From a virus: a DNA stretch of 20,428 bases. The DNA is taken from the IMG/VR virus record IMGVR_UViG_3300034418_004100, positions 1-20,428 of that record. One strand, 5' to 3'. The stretch's first letter is position 1. The number at the start of each line of letters is the position of its first letter. The notes beneath the pieces were generated by a model, which was given only the letters and a program-made list of their open reading frames with translations, was not told the origin of the DNA and ran no database searches. Shown here in pieces: positions 2,985 to 16,900 of this stretch. A program made the translations under genes and the position numbers.

Positions 2985-4490
2985 TTACTTCAATAACATA
3001 AAGTTGTTAGCACCTTGAGTGATTAAACATCTTTCAGTTAAGAAATGTAGTTGCATTGCATCTAAAGCAGATGTAGCAGCGCCAACAGAACCAGTAACCC
3101 AAGTCTTCATTCTTCGGTCATCAGTTTGTGAAGCTCTATATCTTACGTGTAAGAAAGGACGCTTCATGCTTTGTCCAACAGTTTGGTCATAAACTGAAGA
3201 AGTACCAGCAGGAATTAAAACCCCTCTAATCGCAGAACCAGCAGCAGCAGCATCATTAATACCACCTCTTGTAGCTTTGTCATTTAAGTATCTGAAGTCA
3301 GACTTGTAGAAGTCATAAGAACCTCTTCTGAAACCAGAGAAACCTAAATTTAACGCCATGTCTTCAGAGTTGTTGAATACTCCGTACGAAGTACCACCAG
3401 CTCCGTAAGAGTTCATTGAAGCTAACATGTCGTCAATAGCTAGGCTAGTTGATCTGTTAACAAACATCATGTACTCTTCGATAGCTCCTTGCTTGTCAAA
3501 CTCAGCAAGTATCGCATCAAACTCAGCTAAATCAGTAGCAGCGTTAACACCGTTAATACCAGTAGCTACGTTACCTCTTGACTCAACAGCTGCAAATAAA
3601 CCTTCAGTACCTACGTTTCCAGCACCAGCAGCAGATCCAGTAATTGTAGTTCCATCAGCAACAGAACCAACAACGTTTAATTCACTTTCTAACATTGCCA
3701 TTTCAATGTAGTCAGTAAATCTTGATCTAGTGTCAGCTTCAGCTTTTAGGTACCATAAGTAACCTGATTGCCCGTTTTCAGCAGATATTTCAACCCAACC
3801 AACTCTTGAAGTGTCAGAACCAGATATTTCGTAGTAATCTTTCATAATAATCGGCTTATTAGAAAAAGATTTGAAAGTTGGTTCGTTAGCACCTCTTTGA
3901 TCTGAAGTGTTAGTAGTACCAGCAGGTAAAGTATAGTTCATACCTTTTCCAAACTCAGAACCATAAACTAGTATAGTAGTACCATCAGTTGTAGTATTAG
4001 CAGATAAGTTAGCTTGTCCATAAGGAGCAACATCGATAACTTCGTCAGCAACTAAAGTTACTAAACATTTGAAAACACCATCAGAGTTAGAAACAATAAT
4101 AGTATCGTTAACTCTAATACCGTGGTTAGCAGCAGTAAAACCTGAAGTACCATCAATATCGTTTTCAATTGTAATTTGTGAAGTAGCACCACCACCAGCG
4201 TTAGCACCACCTGCAGCAGATGATACATTACCTGTATATGAAAGGTGTAGTCTTGACTGCTCAGACCAAACAACTTGATCAGAAGTCATAGACTCTTCAG
4301 CTCCAACTTGTGATAAGAAACCTGAAATAGTTCTCGGTCCAAAAACTTCAGCTTCTTTCTCCATTAGGTCTGGTAAATATTGTTGCGCCCAGTCATTATC
4401 ACCAGACGTAAAATCTAAATAGTTTGTTGCAAGTGTTTGCTTTTGTGAAGCAGGTACACTGTTTAACAACAACCCGTTTTGAATACTCAT
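2985..4490 (-). CDS. Major capsid protein
   Basis: This 501-aa protein is the likely HK97-fold shell subunit. Support comes from its position after TerL, portal and a scaffold-like gene, its length, its Gly/Ala/Ser/Thr-rich composition and its segments. The N-terminal arm is helical (residues 1-60). The core contains KDYYEISGSDTSRVGW and NGQSGYLWYLKAEADTRSRF near residues 217-258, typical in my memory of crAss-like and marine phage capsid proteins. The C-terminal part ends LTERCLITQGANNFMLLK. An Ala/Gly/Thr-rich stretch (about 90-200) could be a surface insertion. The gene is visibly less AT-rich than its neighbours and is followed by a strong terminator, both in keeping with very high expression. 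No N-terminal protease-processing site is obvious. Confidence 0.85.
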   Translation of the reverse strand: MSIQNGLLLNSVPASQKQTLATNYLDFTSGDNDWAQQYLPDLMEKEAEVFGPRTISGFLSQVGAEESMTSDQVVWSEQSRLHLSYTGNVSSAAGGANAGGGATSQITIENDIDGTSGFTAANHGIRVNDTIIVSNSDGVFKCLVTLVADEVIDVAPYGQANLSANTTTDGTTILVYGSEFGKGMNYTLPAGTTNTSDQRGANEPTFKSFSNKPIIMKDYYEISGSDTSRVGWVEISAENGQSGYLWYLKAEADTRSRFTDYIEMAMLESELNVVGSVADGTTITGSAAGAGNVGTEGLFAAVESRGNVATGINGVNAATDLAEFDAILAEFDKQGAIEEYMMFVNRSTSLAIDDMLASMNSYGAGGTSYGVFNNSEDMALNLGFSGFRRGSYDFYKSDFRYLNDKATRGGINDAAAAGSAIRGVLIPAGTSSVYDQTVGQSMKRPFLHVRYRASQTDDRRMKTWVTGSVGAATSALDAMQLHFLTERCLITQGANNFMLLK

Positions 4491-8164: not shown

Positions 8165-10381
8165 TTATTTTTTAATTATTTTTGACATATTACCTTTGTT
8201 TGAATATTTAGCAATACTTATGTTTAGTTTTGGTTTTTCTACTGTAGCGTTTGGTCTATATAAATGCCTATTACAAGCCATTATTGCAAGACCAGAACTA
8301 ATAGAAGCATCGTGTTTTGTTCTTTTGTTTATATCAAATTTAGCCCAGTCATTTAACAACTCATTAAAATAACAATTACCAAATTGACCTTCAGCGTTCA
8401 TACCCACGTGGCTTTGTATATACATTTCAATAGCTGCGGCATGCGCTTGTTTAATGTCTTCACTAGAGTTTGGTATACCACCTATTTCTTTTTCAGCTGT
8501 AGATAATTTGTTCCAAACTTTATCAGGCCTATTCATACTAAAACCTCTGTAACCACGTCTTCTTAAATAATACAATAGACGAGGTTTGTTGTTTTCTGCA
8601 AGTAAAGGCATCCCGTAAAATACTAATGCCATTAGAACGTCTTCAAAAAACATCTCTGCAGTCTGAGGTCTAGCTATGTATTCTAGAAAAAACTGATTAG
8701 CAGGCGCATCTTCCATGCTAAACTTAGTTAAACCGTGTAAAGCTCCCTTAGAGCCTTTACCATCTACAGTTCCTGATATGTCATATGAGTCACAACCAAA
8801 AGCGCCCATATGTTCATTACCAGGATATTTTATACCATTTTTAATTACAATTTTATTTTGTATATTTGTTGGTGGTACCCAACTTACTTTAAATCTACCT
8901 TGTGGATCTGGATAAAATATAACACTTGTGTCTTTTACACCGTTAACCCACTGAAAACTACCTGTTGAAATACCTAACGTTCTTGACATTTCTTCATTGT
9001 AGTCTATTTGCTCGTATATTTTTACTAAATTAAATATACTATTTTTAGTTTCATCTCTAAACGCGTGTTCTTCAGTTCTTGGAAACTGTCTGTAAAACTC
9101 GTTTAACGCGTCTTGATCTCCTTTTAAACCATCAGCTTCATTTTGCCAGTGGTCTATTACACCTACATCTATTAACTCTCCATGGGGGTCAAAGACGTCA
9201 TCACTCGGAGTATTGAAGACTGGGCTTCCGTGCTCATCAATAAATCCTTCGTAGTTCCACTCCATTGGGATAAAAAGAGAATATAAACCAGACGCTGTCT
9301 GTCCATTTCTGTTTCGCTTAGTGACGTCGGATGCGCTATATAATCTTTTGAAGTTTTCTCCACCTTTATCTAATGAGTTTGATGTCGAGCCCATCATACA
9401 TTTACCTATAATCCTACTACCTAATCGTAAACATGTTTTTGTAACTCTCCAGTTATTTAATATATTATCGGGTCTTTCCCATTTACCGCTTTCATCGTGC
9501 ACTAACAGAGCAAGTTTTTCTCCGTCATAACTGTTATCGCCTGTATTTTTCCAGTCAATAGTAGTATCAAGTCCAACCAAGTCTTCCTGCTGTTCGTTTG
9601 CAGTAATCTTTTTACGCGTGAATTTACTTGCAGGAACCCTATAAGCAAGCTCAGACTTAGGTCTATCCATACCGTCCTGAATCGGTTTGAAAAAGAACGG
9701 GTAGTTAATACTAATTGGGACAACTTTATCTGTAAACATTTTTTTAGCATCTGCACCTGTTTTAGAGAGTATACCAAATCTACTATCACTTGCTAATGTA
9801 GCTTGGTTAACTGTTTCTGCTGAAGACATGAAAGAAAATCCAGACCTACGATTTTTAAGGTAGCACATCCCGTAACATCTTTTGTCGGCTTTACAAGCTT
9901 CCCAGAATATAAAAAATAGTCGATTTGCTTCTCTAAAATCAGGCGCACCTACATCTATTTTACTCCATTGCAAGTACATATAGTGTGTACCTGTTATGTA
10001 TGTTGGTGTACCGTTGTTATTAAACCAGAAACCTTCTTCACGTCTTTTAAACTCTTCGTCTATATAATCATACCACTGCGCTTTCTTTTCTTCAGGGTAT
10101 GTTCTCCAGTCAAATATATTTTTAAGTCTTGCTAGTTCTTTTGGGTATTCAAATTGTTGCCACTTTTTTAGCTCATTAGAGAACACTTGCACTGGTTCTT
10201 TTGGCAGCGCGATTCGCAGATTTTGTATCTCAAGTATTTTACCGATTTTACCAGTTTTTGATATAACGACAATATCGTGTTCTTTATTATATCCATATTC
10301 CCATTTTTTACTTTTATTAAGCCTTTTAATTGTATTAATCTTAACTGGCTCAACTACACTAACTAAATTTTGTTCGTACAT
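8165..10381 (-). CDS. terL: Terminase large subunit (packaging ATPase/nuclease)
   Basis: This 738-aa protein is the motor that pumps DNA into the procapsid and cuts the concatemer. In the ATPase domain there is a divergent Walker A-like KNRRSGFS (about 176-183), Walker B LLVHDE (292-297) and a coupling C-motif GSTSN (331-335). The RNase H-like nuclease domain has an acidic residue in FGCDSYD (D531/D534), acidic residues in MFFEDVLMAL (E580/D581) and a third in KHDASISSGLAI (D691). It overlaps the preceding small gene by one base (TAATG) and is followed 2 bp later by portal. Nothing is truncated. The Walker A lacks the standard GxxxxGK[ST] form, as in several distant terminase groups. Confidence 0.95.
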   Translation of the reverse strand: MYEQNLVSVVEPVKINTIKRLNKSKKWEYGYNKEHDIVVISKTGKIGKILEIQNLRIALPKEPVQVFSNELKKWQQFEYPKELARLKNIFDWRTYPEEKKAQWYDYIDEEFKRREEGFWFNNNGTPTYITGTHYMYLQWSKIDVGAPDFREANRLFFIFWEACKADKRCYGMCYLKNRRSGFSFMSSAETVNQATLASDSRFGILSKTGADAKKMFTDKVVPISINYPFFFKPIQDGMDRPKSELAYRVPASKFTRKKITANEQQEDLVGLDTTIDWKNTGDNSYDGEKLALLVHDESGKWERPDNILNNWRVTKTCLRLGSRIIGKCMMGSTSNSLDKGGENFKRLYSASDVTKRNRNGQTASGLYSLFIPMEWNYEGFIDEHGSPVFNTPSDDVFDPHGELIDVGVIDHWQNEADGLKGDQDALNEFYRQFPRTEEHAFRDETKNSIFNLVKIYEQIDYNEEMSRTLGISTGSFQWVNGVKDTSVIFYPDPQGRFKVSWVPPTNIQNKIVIKNGIKYPGNEHMGAFGCDSYDISGTVDGKGSKGALHGLTKFSMEDAPANQFFLEYIARPQTAEMFFEDVLMALVFYGMPLLAENNKPRLLYYLRRRGYRGFSMNRPDKVWNKLSTAEKEIGGIPNSSEDIKQAHAAAIEMYIQSHVGMNAEGQFGNCYFNELLNDWAKFDINKRTKHDASISSGLAIMACNRHLYRPNATVEKPKLNISIAKYSNKGNMSKIIKK

Positions 10382-10653
10382 TACTTTGACCTACCTTCAG
10401 CAAATCCTTTAAATACTTTTACTTTATCTTCAGGTTCTTTACCTTCTAATAAATTTTCTTCTTCTTGGATCCTGTTTAATATTTCAAACGCATCAAATAT
10501 TGCTAGCTTTTTTGTAGCAGCAGCATTTTTTAATCTATCAGCAGATATATCATCATCAGAGTCTACAATTGGCTCTTTAGCAACTTTGATTAATTCATCA
10601 ACTGCTTTCTGCCCAGCCTGGATTATATTCTTCTTCGTCTCCTTGATATTCAT
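10381..10653 (-). CDS. Small helical protein before TerL, candidate small terminase subunit
   Basis: This 90-aa acidic and mainly helical protein has a DDDISADRLKNAAATKK segment in the middle and ends KVFKGFAEGRSK. It lies directly upstream of terL and shares one base with it, the usual place of the small terminase subunit. No helix-turn-helix can be pointed to with confidence, and terS sequences diverge too much for recognition by eye, so the assignment rests on synteny and size. Its start overlaps the end of the 203-aa gene by 56 bp, more than elsewhere in the operon. No later ATG exists in the frame. Confidence 0.6.
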   Translation of the reverse strand: MNIKETKKNIIQAGQKAVDELIKVAKEPIVDSDDDISADRLKNAAATKKLAIFDAFEILNRIQEEENLLEGKEPEDKVKVFKGFAEGRSK

Positions 10654-11209
10654 ATTTAATTGTAATAAATTTTGATAGTAGTCTATATAACTTTTTACCG
10701 TCTATAATAAACTCATATTCTGAGCTTGGTCTAAACCCTATTAAATCACCTTCGTTAACCGTACCGTCAGTATATTTAACAACACCCATTAAAGGCTGTT
10801 CTTTGTCTGAACTTAATTTATCTGTTGATTTTATAGGCGCAACAAAACAATAACCTTTAATTGCTTGCCATTTTCTATTGTGATAACTAAATATAGCTTT
10901 TGGCTTGTATAAAAATATTTGATCTGGTTGTACTAGATAAGTGTCTTCATCAATATAAGCTCTACTGTTTTTTTCTATACCGTGTTGGTTGTGCCATCTT
11001 CTAAAAACATTATGATGTACAATTACAGTATCACCAACTTTAATATCTGTTTCACCTACAGTTGGTATTGCTTTTACTATAGCTTCTCTGCTAACATATT
11101 GATGATTAAATATTTCAGTGTTTACTATCAGTTCTTTACCACCTATATCTTTTGTGTTGTTGTATCTTGATTTTACAGGTTGTACAACAAAGTTGTAAAC
11201 CGCTTTCAT
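10598..11209 (-). CDS. Unknown 203-aa protein with possible GroES-like beta-barrel
   Basis: The protein has no signal peptide or membrane segment and is beta-rich. A central stretch runs VGDTVIVHHNVFRRWHNQHG, then DEDTYLVQPDQIFLY. The pattern (x)VGD-x-V-hhh, a loop, then YxV-x-x-x-QIhhY is like the strand order of Cpn10/GroES barrels. A second GD turn (NEGDLIGFRPSSEYEFIIDGKKLYRL) closes the protein. From memory, homologues are common in marine phages as hypothetical proteins. Given the phage-encoded GroEL/GroES elsewhere in the operon, a second co-chaperonin-like or capsid-associated role is conceivable but unproven. It overlaps the upstream gene by one base (TAATG). Confidence 0.6.
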   Translation of the reverse strand: MKAVYNFVVQPVKSRYNNTKDIGGKELIVNTEIFNHQYVSREAIVKAIPTVGETDIKVGDTVIVHHNVFRRWHNQHGIEKNSRAYIDEDTYLVQPDQIFLYKPKAIFSYHNRKWQAIKGYCFVAPIKSTDKLSSDKEQPLMGVVKYTDGTVNEGDLIGFRPSSEYEFIIDGKKLYRLLSKFITIKYEYQGDEEEYNPGWAESS

Positions 11210-11697: not shown

Positions 11698-12420
11698 TTA
11701 TAATCCGTGAATTCCTTGTAAGTAACTGTTCACGTCAGCTATTTCTTGTGCATTTAATCCTTTACTCCAAAATGCTAATTCTAATATTTTACCATCGAAA
11801 AATTGTGATGTACCAGCTCTAGATCCAAGAACATTAATATCAAAACCAAAAGGGTTTTCACCTTCAGCTTCATTAGACGAAGTGTCTGTGTCAAATGTTA
11901 GTTGTGTACCATTTTTAAAAAATGTAAATCTGTTACTAACACCAGCACTTTTATTTACTAGTATTAACATTTTAGGACCAGCAGCAAGCACAGCGCCATC
12001 AGTAAACTTCATACTAGTTGTTGTTTGAGTAGGATCATTTGTAACAATTGTAAAAGTATTTTGATCAGCAATTCTAATTTGATCGTTTGAATCTTTACTT
12101 AATATGGTATTGTCACTAGCTGATTCTTGATCTACAACTACTGCCATACAAAAACCTTGGTTTTCAGCTATTGTTATTGTGCTCGTTAAATCATAGTGTG
12201 CAGAATCAGTTTCTTCAAAATCTAAACCACCATTAGATACTGTAGCTTGATTTATTTCAGTAGCTTGTGTTGCATGATTATTGTTACCAGATGAATCATC
12301 CCATTTAGCAGCTGTTACACCTACACCGTTTTTAAGCCATAATTCTAAATCAGTAGTTGCATCTTTTAAGTCCATAGACACATAACTAGATCCTGAAACG
12401 CTATTTGCTAACCCTAACAT
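11698..12420 (-). CDS. LamG/concanavalin-like virion protein (capsid fibre or receptor-binding)
   Basis: This 240-aa protein is all-beta. The pattern is that of a LamG/concanavalin A-like lectin domain: LELWLKNG, then KWDDSSGNNNHATQ, FTFFKNGTQL, and a final FFDGKILELAFWSKGLNAQE near the C-terminus. The last motif is very typical of laminin-G-like phage proteins. The ATG at 12420 is chosen because it overlaps the preceding stop by one base (TAATG), as other junctions here do. An ATG 24 bp earlier would add eight residues but intrude into the upstream gene. An AGGAG sits just before the chosen start, unusual for this genome. A role in glycan binding at the virion surface is inferred from the fold. 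Confidence 0.7.
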   Translation of the reverse strand: MLGLANSVSGSSYVSMDLKDATTDLELWLKNGVGVTAAKWDDSSGNNNHATQATEINQATVSNGGLDFEETDSAHYDLTSTITIAENQGFCMAVVVDQESASDNTILSKDSNDQIRIADQNTFTIVTNDPTQTTTSMKFTDGAVLAAGPKMLILVNKSAGVSNRFTFFKNGTQLTFDTDTSSNEAEGENPFGFDINVLGSRAGTSQFFDGKILELAFWSKGLNAQEIADVNSYLQGIHGL

Positions 12421-12788
12421 TAGTCTCCTATATAAGCTATACAAGTGCCAGAAGCTGGATCTATTTCAGTCCATCTACCATATATAGTCACGCCTTTTGG
12501 AAAAGTATTACTAACATCTACTTGTAAACCACCACCACCTGATGATGTAGTTTCTGAACCTACTGATAGGTTGTGAGCAGCAGCTTCTGTACCTATGTAC
12601 TCTAGCCCTGCACCAGCAGAATCATTGTCAGCTTTTAAACCACCACTTGAATCAAAAGTGCAGTCTGTTAACATTGTTATTGCAACAAACACTTTGTTTG
12701 TAGGAGGTGTCATTGCGGCAGTACCATCATTAAACATACTACCCATCTGCCCAAAGCCATAAGCTACTTCTGTTGAATTTATTCCCAT
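12420..12788 (-). CDS. Possible capsid decoration or head-fibre protein
   Basis: This 122-aa protein is Gly/Ser/Thr/Ala-rich with low charge and predicted beta structure, as in virion surface proteins. It begins with EVAYGFGQMGSMF, contains a Gly run (SSGGGGLQVDVSN) and ends with a WTEIDPASGTCIAYIGD strand. It sits between the holin and the LamG-like gene, each junction overlapping by one base. I recall similar short proteins near capsid genes of marine phages. A decoration or fibre-base role is a guess from composition and neighbours. Confidence 0.6.
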   Translation of the reverse strand: MGINSTEVAYGFGQMGSMFNDGTAAMTPPTNKVFVAITMLTDCTFDSSGGLKADNDSAGAGLEYIGTEAAAHNLSVGSETTSSGGGGLQVDVSNTFPKGVTIYGRWTEIDPASGTCIAYIGD

Positions 12789-13879: not shown

Positions 13880-14260
13880 TTAGCATTTCCATCTGCGCCT
13901 AGCAGCACATATTCTTTTTTTAGGTGTCTTACTGCAATTTATATTATGCATCTTCATTTGCCCAGCAGATCTAGCACAATATGATTTTTTACGTTTACCA
14001 CCACCTGGTTGTGGTGCTTTTAAATTACCACCTGTTTCTCTGTTGTAAGCTCTTCTACCCGCAGCTGTCATACCTGCACCTTCTTCAGCTGAAAGAAAAT
14101 GCCTACCTTTACCTTTTGTAGTTTTTCTTAGTTTATTTAATGGTGAACCTGTATTTCTACGTCTACCACAACTAGTAACTTTAAGAGGATTACCTTTCTG
14201 CTTAAAAGCAGATATAGGTGATGATTCAAACATATTGTTTTGTCTTTCTGATCCTGGCAT
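13880..14260 (-). CDS. Basic Cys-containing protein, possible DUF6321-like domain
   Basis: This 126-aa protein is rich in Arg, Lys and Gly. The C-terminal half runs TAAGRRAYNRETGGNLKAPQ, then GGGKRKKSYCARSAGQMK, and ends with RICAARRRWKC. From memory this matches a small domain of unknown function common in cyanophages and other marine phages (probably DUF6321). The N-terminal half is low-complexity and basic. The gene begins 1 bp after the stop of the winged-helix-like gene. A DNA-binding or virion-internal role is suggested by charge only. Confidence 0.65.
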   Translation of the reverse strand: MPGSERQNNMFESSPISAFKQKGNPLKVTSCGRRRNTGSPLNKLRKTTKGKGRHFLSAEEGAGMTAAGRRAYNRETGGNLKAPQPGGGKRKKSYCARSAGQMKMHNINCSKTPKKRICAARRRWKC

Positions 14261-14261
14261 A

Positions 14262-14702
14262 TTATCTATTTTTATCTTTGATCATATCGTCTATAGCTTT
14301 ATTATAAACTTTATCTGTATATGATTTGTTGTTGTAGAATATGCTTCGCTCTGATGTAGGCATGTCCTCTTCGCCTAATAGTATACGATATATTCTATTT
14401 ATTAATTGTTTACATCTATACGATGTTTTATACACACTATACTTTATAGTAGTACGATTTCTATGTCTCCATACATCTATCCACCCTTGTTGTCTAAGCC
14501 TGTCCCATCTTGCTTTATCCCAAGAAAATGTATAAACTCCGTCCATGAAATCTTTTCGTGTGAATCTTCCTTCACAATCTAAATAAAATAAAAGTTCTAA
14601 GTCTGCGTCTAATATCCCGTAAGTTTTACAAGCCCACTTACGTGTGAGCCTGTAATACTTAAGGATATTCATTTCACGCAAATCTTGCGCGGTTAGTCTC
14701 AA
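14262..14702 (-). CDS. Winged-helix (MarR-like) DNA-binding protein
   Basis: This 146-aa basic protein has the helix pattern of a winged helix-turn-helix: an N-terminal helix (LREMNILKYYRLTRKWACK), a second (DADLELLFYLDCEGRFTRKD), then a recognition-like unit WDKARWDRLRQQGWIDVWRH. A basic wing (RNRTTIKYSVYKTS) and a C-terminal helix for dimerisation (YRCKQLINRIYRILLG) follow. The pattern resembles the MarR class, as I recall for similar marine phage genes. It could control leftward late transcription, but its position inside the operon also allows a structural role. It starts 6 bp after the stop of the 101-aa gene. Confidence 0.55.
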   Translation of the reverse strand: MRLTAQDLREMNILKYYRLTRKWACKTYGILDADLELLFYLDCEGRFTRKDFMDGVYTFSWDKARWDRLRQQGWIDVWRHRNRTTIKYSVYKTSYRCKQLINRIYRILLGEEDMPTSERSIFYNNKSYTDKVYNKAIDDMIKDKNR

Positions 14703-15090: not shown

Positions 15091-15348
15091 CTAATCTATC
15101 AATACCACATCCATTGATCGGATTACGTGGTAAAGAGTTTCTTTGTACTGAACACCATGTCCAGCATGTTTATCATAATAAACGATGTCTTTTTCGTTTA
15201 TTCCTTCTACAAGATTACCAGTTGATATTACTTTGGCCTTTATATACCTATTGTCCGCATCTACGTCTTCAGTTAATATAAGCCCACCAACTTTCTTTGG
15301 CCCTTGTTTTATTTTTTCCACTATTATATAATTATTGACTGCTCGCAT
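15091..15348 (-). CDS. groES: GroES/Cpn10 co-chaperonin
   Basis: This 85-aa protein is close to a minimal GroES (E. coli 97 aa). The N-terminal strand (MRAVNNYIIVEKI) is followed by the flexible mobile loop (PKKVGGLILTED, residues 17-28), whose hydrophobic LIL at 23-25 would bind the apical domain of GroEL. The barrel (YIKAKVISTGN) and the closing VKSGD-like turn (VEGINEKDIVYY) are present. It forms the lid of the folding chamber. It lies downstream of groEL and overlaps it by 17 bp, the reverse of the normal bacterial order. The roof-loop region is shorter than in bacterial proteins. Confidence 0.95.
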   Translation of the reverse strand: MRAVNNYIIVEKIKQGPKKVGGLILTEDVDADNRYIKAKVISTGNLVEGINEKDIVYYDKHAGHGVQYKETLYHVIRSMDVVLID

Positions 15349-16900
15349 CTCCTCTCATATTTGAAATTATACAATCAGCGGATATAATAGTAGTTACAAC
15401 ACTTACCGCATTTTTAAGTGCTGACTTAGTAACAAGTACTGGATCTATAATACCTTCTTGTATCATATCAGTTTTTGTACCGTTATTTACGTTTATACCT
15501 TCACCACCTGTAGGTTCTGCCACTTCTAATATACCAGCATTGTCTAATATAGTGTTATATGGTGCTTTTATAGCATTAAGCAGTATTTTTTCAGTATCGT
15601 TATTAGGTGTTAGCTCTTGGGCTGCGTTTAACAGTGCAATACCACCGCCTGGTACAATACCTTCTTTCAAAGCGGCTTTAGTAGCGTAAATAGCATCTTC
15701 AACTCTATCTTTCTTTTCCTTTAATTCTACTTTAGATGCTGCACCTACCTTAACAACCCCTACTTTACCTGACAGCATAGCCAAACGATCTTGGTGTTTT
15801 TTCTTTAAAAACGGGTTTTTTTCGCTTTTTATTACTTTTTTAACATTTTCGATGCGATCTTGTAAATCTACACCTAAATCTATAGTAGTAATTACAGTAT
15901 TTTTATCGTTTGTAACAGCTTTTTTAGCTTTTCCAAGACAATCAACAGTAATAAGATCCATATCGTCACCTAATTCTTCATTTATTACCGTTGCACCGGT
16001 TAAAAACGCTAAATCTTGCACTGTATCTTGCTTAGTTGGGCCAAAACCTGGTAAATCAATGATATTTACTTTAATATTACCCTTAACTTTGTTCATCATA
16101 AGGGCTGATTTTAGCTGTTGTTCAACTTGCGCCACTATAAGTAGCTCTTTTTTGTTCTTTATAACATGCTCTAGTATCGGTTGTATCTTACGTATGTTAG
16201 GTATTTCACTACCAACGATCAAAACTAGTGGTTCTTCAAGCACAGCCTCATGTTTTTCAGTGTCTGTAACAAAATGTGGTGATGTTATACCACAATCAAA
16301 CTGTACACCATCAACAATATCAGCATATGTTTTTTCAGTTTCTGATGTTTCCATAAAAACTACACCATCTTCACCTACTTTTTCGTAAGCTTCTGCTATA
16401 ATTATACCTAAATCACGGTCATTATTACAACTTATGCTACTTACATCTTCTAACATACCGCCTTTTACATCAATCGCCTTGTCAGATAAGTAATTTGTAA
16501 CCCTGTCAAAAGCAGAGTTTATACCGTTTTTAATATCTCTTATAGAAATATCTTTATACTCTTCTTTATTTACTTCTTTTATTAGTGCTTCAGCAAGGAC
16601 GGTGGCTGTTGTAGTACCGTCACCTGCTTCTTTCACTGTATTTTGCGCTGCTTGCTTAATAAGCGTAGCACCTAGGTTTTCAACCGGGTCATATAAGACA
16701 ACAGATTCAGCTACTGTTACTCCGTCTTTTGTAATGACCGGGTTGCCACGTGCATCTTCATAGATCACACATTTCCCAGAAGCGCCAAGGGTTGACTTAA
16801 CAGCTTGTGCAAGCTTGTCAACTCCTGCTATTATTTTGTCTTTAGCTTGCTGACCAAAGTTTAACTCTTTAATCAACTCACTAGGGTGATTATATTCCAT
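15332..16900 (-). CDS. groEL: GroEL/Cpn60 chaperonin (phage-encoded)
   Basis: This 522-aa ATP-driven folding machine is complete in the equatorial, intermediate and apical domains. ATP-site residues are kept: D59 in ITKDG, GDGTTT at 93-98 (D94) and D402 in RVEDA. The GGG turn is at 418-420. In the apical domain, the site that binds substrate and GroES is altered: the E. coli Tyr199/Tyr203/Phe204 region reads GITSPHF here, so only the Phe is kept. The chain ends NMRGDASSQ and lacks the Gly-Gly-Met repeat tail of bacterial GroEL. It precedes groES. The probable clients are the phage's own capsid or tail proteins; this is inferred. The gene starts after four TTAAT units and has no Shine-Dalgarno. 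Confidence 0.97.
   Translation of the reverse strand: MEYNHPSELIKELNFGQQAKDKIIAGVDKLAQAVKSTLGASGKCVIYEDARGNPVITKDGVTVAESVVLYDPVENLGATLIKQAAQNTVKEAGDGTTTATVLAEALIKEVNKEEYKDISIRDIKNGINSAFDRVTNYLSDKAIDVKGGMLEDVSSISCNNDRDLGIIIAEAYEKVGEDGVVFMETSETEKTYADIVDGVQFDCGITSPHFVTDTEKHEAVLEEPLVLIVGSEIPNIRKIQPILEHVIKNKKELLIVAQVEQQLKSALMMNKVKGNIKVNIIDLPGFGPTKQDTVQDLAFLTGATVINEELGDDMDLITVDCLGKAKKAVTNDKNTVITTIDLGVDLQDRIENVKKVIKSEKNPFLKKKHQDRLAMLSGKVGVVKVGAASKVELKEKKDRVEDAIYATKAALKEGIVPGGGIALLNAAQELTPNNDTEKILLNAIKAPYNTILDNAGILEVAEPTGGEGINVNNGTKTDMIQEGIIDPVLVTKSALKNAVSVVTTIISADCIISNMRGDASSQ

Follow-up and report, generated by a model that had tools for sequence, protein, structure and literature searches.

The groEL and groES genes of a viral DNA fragment of 20,428 nt (IMG/VR virus record IMGVR_UViG_3300034418_004100; hereafter, the window) stand in the reverse of the bacterial order, and the question they raise is whether this pair was borrowed from a host or belongs to a chaperonin system of the phage's own and, in the latter case, which proteins such a system would serve. 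The phage was placed by its terminase large subunit (cf. Table 1), whose relatives were found only in phages of Flavobacterium, Cellulophaga, Tenacibaculum and Maribacter and in MW202828, an uncultured podovirus genome. The window terminase is 65% identical to that of MW202828, 45% identical to those of the elemo phages, and about 38% identical to those of Pervagoviridae and Pachyviridae. Relatives of the capsid-type protein came only from phages of Flavobacterium, Cellulophaga and Maribacter and from MW202828, Tenacibaculum being represented among the terminase matches alone. Since the relatives of both proteins reside in phages of Flavobacteriia, the host would most likely be a marine flavobacterium.

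Table 1 Coordinates of the window features considered in this work, with the basis of each assignment
Feature	Position	Strand	Basis
Major capsid-type virion structural protein, 501 aa, candidate client	2985..4490	(-)	phrog_13704, 7.9e-99
Terminase large subunit	8165..10381	(-)	phrog_6681; used for placing the phage
Second co-chaperonin-like gene, 203 aa, tandem GroES-like domains	10598..11209	(-)	phrog_13932, AlphaFold2 model
146-aa phrog_17028 gene (g146), after groES	14262..14702	(-)	PHROG match
groES, 85 aa, single-domain co-chaperonin with short roof loop	15091..15348	(-)	PF00166, AlphaFold2 model
GroES shortened roof loop	15190..15216	(-)	sequence comparison and model
GroES mobile-loop motif GGLILT (predicted GroEL-binding tripeptide)	15271..15288	(-)	alignment
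Overlap of groEL end and groES start, 17 bp	15332..15348	(-)	ORF coordinates
groEL, 522 aa, group I chaperonin	15332..16900	(-)	PF00118, phrog_5725
GroEL ring-ring contact region 2 (E. coli helix Q, 456-478)	15500..15532	(-)	alignment, 83/83
GroEL ring-ring contact region 1 (E. coli 424-440)	15593..15613	(-)	alignment, 83/83
GroEL apical segment GITSPHF (E. coli 198-204)	16271..16291	(-)	residue alignment

The identity of both proteins was established by profile comparison. The window GroEL scored 182.2 bits against Pfam Cpn60 PF00118 (curated cut-off 34.3, E 2e-53), matched the PHROG groEL family phrog_5725 (8e-131) and lay above the cut-off of NF000592 (471 bits, cut-off 397), while its score of 463 bits against the NCBI GroEL equivalog TIGR02348 fell below the cut-off of 582.1, which makes it a divergent member of the family and no ordinary bacterial GroEL. 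Its partner was recognized by Pfam Cpn10 PF00166 (32.0 bits, curated cut-off 21.1, E 1.2e-7) and by the PHROG GroES profile (5.5e-12). The original prediction, made from the letters of the DNA, described a groEL that precedes groES and overlaps it by 17 bp, and the coordinates confirmed this arrangement. A search of viral contigs returned 80 IMG/VR relatives with 67-99% identity, 79 of them with both genes; groEL comes first in 79/79, and the two genes overlap in 78/79 (by 17 nt in 40 loci, by 14 nt in 34, and by 1 or 4 nt in four). The sole locus that has no overlap, L058 (groES at 3667-3921), shows a 427-nt gap between groEL and groES. The short GroES of 85 aa, likewise predicted, recurs at this length in 72/79 relatives. 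The isolated elemo phages and the MW202828 and Panino types have groEL first too, whereas groES lies directly upstream of groEL in 78/80 bacterial loci that we fetched, as had been assumed for bacterial operons. Because the groEL-first order is stable in phage relatives and bacterial loci are arranged the other way round, this order is a trait of the phage lineage.

The residues of GroEL were then read from an alignment of 83 viral rows in E. coli numbering. All 83 rows carry the ATP residues K51, D52, D87 and D398, and the GDGTTT and GGG motifs are present in GroEL of the window lineage; thus, the statement that all ATP-site residues are kept proved right, as did the one that the protein lacks the GGM tail. 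The reading of the apical segment GITSPHF, in which only Phe was said to be kept, was too strong, since among the nine classic groove residues S201 (83/83), F204 (81/83) and L237 are all retained. The changed groove positions are Y199 (to I or L), Y203 (mostly to H or N), V263 (to M or L), L234 (to Q, 83/83), V264 (to M, 83/83) and L259 (to K in 80/83, and to K or R in 82/83). The R197-E386 inter-subunit bridge is lost (C, S or V at 197 and K at 386), while the charges of the equatorial-apical bridge D83-K327 are swapped to K/R83-D327 in 61/83 rows, which suggests that this switch is maintained through compensation. Both segments of the ring-ring contact are shortened in 83/83 rows: region 1 comprises 9-12 residues versus 17, i.e. 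it is 5-8 residues shorter and the E434 position is absent, and region 2 comprises 17-19 residues versus 23, i.e. it is 4-6 residues shorter. Given these deletions in every row and the fact that R452 is not conserved across the viral GroELs, it is a fair prediction that the window GroEL works as one ring or as a double ring that splits readily. In the chaperonin of phage EL, the main differences from GroEL are likewise at the ring-ring interface; that protein comes apart into single rings, and both R197-E386 and D83-K327 are unconserved in it (PMC7185714).

The mobile loop of GroES is intact, with G22, L23 and T26 invariant in 55 aligned GroES sequences. An AlphaFold2 model of the window protein (pLDDT 86.5) adopts the GroES fold, with a VIA Z of 12.2 to 1wnr_G and of 10.1 to T4 gp31 in 2cgt_O, and its residues 43-55 run with no intervening strand. 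The roof loop, counted as the residues between strands, amounts to about 9 in the window protein, compared with 11 in T4 gp31, 13 in flavobacterial hosts and 18 in E. coli, so that, judged by the standard applied to gp31-like proteins, the window GroES has no roof loops. Their absence from gp31 is considered to give the capsid protein gp23 a wider entrance (PMC6318259). Since the roof of flavobacterial host GroES is already partly shortened, the short roof is a viral trait only in part.

A third component escaped the original prediction. Directly upstream of a 90-aa gene, which is followed by the gene for the terminase large subunit, lies a gene whose product matched phrog_13932 ('co-chaperonin GroES') at 8.7e-20. 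The top match of its AlphaFold2 model (pLDDT 76.6) was 7ekq_R (Foldseek 7.7e-5; VIA Z 9.2 over 156 residues), and the halves 1-103 and 113-188 each match GroES with Z of about 8. The entry 7ekq is a chloroplast ClpP complex, and its chains P-R we take to be the Cpn11/20/23 co-chaperonins. Pfam Cpn10 gave no hit for the tandem protein of either the window or MW202828; its relatives in phi18:3 and phi38:1 exceed the Pfam Cpn10 cut-off through domain 2. The loop of domain 1 in the window protein reads IGG-KELIV (GG-hydrophobic), and in its domain 2 no mobile loop could be recognized, as against KKPSLIYIPED in phi18:3. A direct profile comparison of the single and tandem GroES gave a weak match (probability 36%, E 4e-4). 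Relatives of the tandem protein are encoded in more than 580 IMG/VR stretches, and the gene stands just upstream of the terminase genes wherever we viewed it (phi18:3, phi38:1, Panino, MW202828). In phi18:3, it carries no 'MS/MS structural protein' note, which the adjoining gene at the portal position has, and this speaks weakly against the tandem protein as a part of the virion. A 'chaperonin cpn10' is listed as a core protein of Pervagoviridae (PMC8776804). Judged by its sequence and model, the tandem protein is a candidate second lid.

We consider it rather probable that these genes constitute a phage-dedicated group I chaperonin system for the phage's own proteins, probably those of the capsid, in which groEL was added to a resident groES. 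The sequences show three conserved parts: a GroEL with the residues of a competent ATPase, a GroES whose roof is short and whose mobile loop is intact, and the tandem GroES-like protein encoded near the terminase genes. The phage GroEL, whose rings may be single or come apart readily, would bind newly made phage proteins and would then be capped by the short-roof GroES and/or the tandem lid; the resulting cage, slightly larger or open-topped, may fold virion proteins. By analogy with T4 gp31, which serves the capsid protein together with host GroEL, virion proteins are plausible clients, and the likeliest of them would be the capsid protein. A more specific version, namely a stepwise-built, capsid-dedicated system of three parts, with a probably single-ring GroEL and two lids (the short-roof GroES and the Cpn20-like tandem protein), is put forward tentatively, as we doubt that it would hold in full. 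The phage GroEL of phi38:1 is produced in infected cells (PMC13288928). The location of the pair in a head operon, noted in the original prediction, applies to the window lineage only, where the pair lies on the same strand, upstream of the lysis genes and then of the tandem GroES-terminase unit; elemo, phi38:1 and Panino carry the pair elsewhere, and its position outside the head genes in related phages argues against the dedicated system. Similarly, of the idea of a self-contained pair with matched interface changes, the complete and conserved pair stood, and the matching found no support. The correlation of distances was 0.62 for GroEL and GroES and 0.72 for GroEL and the tandem GroES, and in L058 a GroEL that is 85-90% like its kin is accompanied by a GroES only about 53% like theirs, which looks like a replacement that was tolerated. 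The swap in L058 and the lack of any extra correlation between the distances of the two proteins argue against a tightly matched pair, and tight co-evolution of GroEL and GroES was rejected as unsupported.

Two other functions were weighed against a system dedicated to virion proteins. The genes might act as a general booster that has no specific virion client, either by providing more folding capacity for the burst of late proteins or by substituting for host GroEL under stress or cold; the canonical mobile loop and ATP site agree with this, as do the lone GroELs of different origin that many unrelated phages carry, but we regard it as unlikely, because the groove is altered in a fixed manner at L234 and L259 and the tandem lid beside the terminase genes is a better fit to a specialized role. 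More improbable still is that the protein works as a holdase, which would prevent aggregation with no encapsulation, as phage EL gp146 does, or as a virion-associated chaperonin. The ring contacts and the R197-E386 bridge are indeed lost as in phage EL, and a methylated peptide of the phi38:1 GroEL was detected in free-virion samples (PMC13288928), although such samples may contain lysate proteins. In contrast to phage EL, this lineage has a GroES of its own, whose mobile loop is intact and whose gene adjoins groEL in all 79 loci; the charge swap also preserves the D83-K327 bridge. Both points speak against a holdase.

The distribution of the three genes bears on how the dedicated system could have been assembled. 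GroEL, single GroES and tandem GroES occur together in elemo, MW202828, Panino, phi38:1 and Calle_3; the Pachyviridae phi18:3, phi13:2, phi19:3 and phi46:3 have the single and the tandem GroES and no GroEL, and Gundel has none of the three. IMG/VR contigs with a tandem GroES and no GroEL were considered as counter-examples and rejected, since they are explained by truncation: in the longer ones, the tandem gene lies about 0.6-4.8 kb from the contig end, and groEL is normally found several kb further upstream. The order conserved in the window lineage is EL-ES-g146-...-tandem ES-TerL. A phrog_17028 gene is found downstream of groES in 70/70 loci of this lineage, in elemo and in MW202828, and in phi18:3, which has no groEL, it is one small gene further from groES. 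Outside the window lineage, the groEL-first order was counted in 13 loci of the elemo type and in at least 62 of the MW202828 type, and in some of these, unrelated genes separate groEL from the groES-phrog_17028 unit; in phi38:1-type phages, groEL is second, with one gene between. No GroES was found within 600 nt in 27 MW202828-type loci, nine of which have one 624-883 nt downstream, and the Panino GroEL had no relative in the viral scan. On the simplest account, the single groES would be the resident gene and groEL a movable newcomer, which became joined to its upstream side in some lineages and to its downstream side in another. An ancestral phage group may have used the single and tandem GroES to cap host GroEL, which would be the state of Pachyviridae, with groEL inserted upstream of the resident groES afterwards; its probable addition beside a phage groES would explain the groEL-first order, since the pair would then not descend from a captured host groES-groEL operon. 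The alternative to a gain of groEL elsewhere is its loss from Pachyviridae.

Some neighboring genes deserve a remark of their own. The phrog_17028 family adjoins phage groES with or without groEL and in either orientation, and the MW202828 member is distantly similar to a family of phage transcriptional regulators, which suggests that the protein is a putative regulator. In the interval from the lysis genes to the tandem GroES, the window encodes a LamG/concanavalin-like virion protein (11698-12444, minus strand) that is present in 10/70 related loci and is a variable accessory or host-range gene. The C-terminal 65 residues encoded at 13880-14260 (minus strand) match the extreme C-termini of five PHROGs ranging from 99 to 928 aa, as would a portable Lys/Arg/Cys-rich module borne by otherwise different phage proteins.

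The age of the pair was assessed from phylogeny. Among the matches listed, the window GroEL is at most 43% identical to bacterial GroELs, and the closest cellular one is from the flavobacterium Lutibacter (43%). In a 70-row GroEL tree, whose long branches limit the placement of the window lineage, this lineage formed one clade (support 100), whose stem measures 2.14 substitutions per site, compared with 0.18 for the flavobacterial stem, and fell outside a clade (support 98) of all bacteria together with the GroELs of phage DAC16 and of a 735-kb phage. Grouping of the lineage with flavobacteria was not rejected by the AU test (p-AU 0.46); a p of 0.035 for Bacteroidota plus the window lineage was set aside, because that grouping left out the phage GroELs nested in Bacteroidota. 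An ancient flavobacterial donor of groEL is possible. All three genes, i.e. groEL, groES and the tandem gene, are under purifying selection (dN/dS of about 0.1-0.2). That a host groES-groEL operon was captured recently and rearranged afterwards is very improbable and was rejected, as the flavobacterial best match and the unrejected flavobacterial grouping are opposed by the low identity, the long stem and the reversed order in all sisters. The original prediction, too, had regarded the pair as the phage's own and had named a phylogeny of very recent host capture with a host-like order in sister phages as the result that would speak against this; no such result was obtained, since the phage has long kept the pair and groEL-first is stable in its sisters. 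In the same tree, the GroELs of Bacteroides phage DAC16 and of the 735-kb phage LR756503 nest in Bacteroidota and resemble later host captures, and DAC16 retains the host-like groES-groEL order. In CAKLQH020000021 ('Acinetobacter phage MD-2021a'), a groES-groEL operon that encodes an Acinetobacter-like protein stands amid chromosomal genes (lipid kinase, dgkA), and it is probably bacterial sequence inside a phage record.

Neither phage GroEL/ES nor the groEL-first order is new. GroEL/ES genes are annotated in flavophages, and Marine et al. in 2017 reportedly found that, in virioplankton, the arrangement of the genes for the two chaperonin subunits, large and small, follows GroEL phylogeny; the marine viral GroELs there are, as in the window, divergent from those of bacteria. 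The closest parallels are the elemo phages of Flavobacterium sp. BAL314 (e.g. MT497078) and MW202828, which share with the window the groEL-first order with an end-to-start overlap, a short GroES, a GroEL devoid of the GGM tail, the phrog_17028 neighbor downstream and the tandem GroES upstream of the terminase. Their GroELs are 38-39% identical to that of the window; moreover, the elemo pair lies on the strand opposite to the head genes, and the ring-contact segments of MW202828 are of normal length. T4 gp31 resembles the window GroES in its fold, its lack of a roof loop and its phage late-protein setting, but T4 has no GroEL, whereas the window phage has one together with two co-chaperonin-like genes. 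Pseudomonas phages EL and OBP likewise have an altered ring-ring interface and a lost R197-E386 bridge; their chaperonins are described as acting with no co-chaperonin, whereas the window lineage always has groES near groEL, and D83-K327 is simply lost in them instead of being charge-swapped. The tandem protein shares two head-to-tail GroES-like domains with the chloroplast Cpn20 type, to which its closest solved chain (7ekq_R) belongs, and differs from it in its phage origin and in a domain 2 devoid of a recognizable mobile loop, as known from sequence and model. While phage chaperonins as such were already known (PMC5934643, PMC7185714), we found no description, in the literature searched, of a tandem GroES in phages, and what is new here is a conserved GroEL with two distinct GroES-type proteins, the tandem lid itself, and the relatives that have lids only.

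The conservation of the set across a whole group of related viruses marks it as a long-standing and useful possession of these viruses and not as something lately taken from a host. Cultured phages provide a natural series, from no set through lids only to lids plus chamber, in which the conditions that make a lid of its own necessary to a virus can be told from those that call for a chamber of its own. The system also bears on whether a seven-fold ring can be served by tandem GroES lids outside plastids and on whether a lid can still act on a GroEL with reduced ring contacts.
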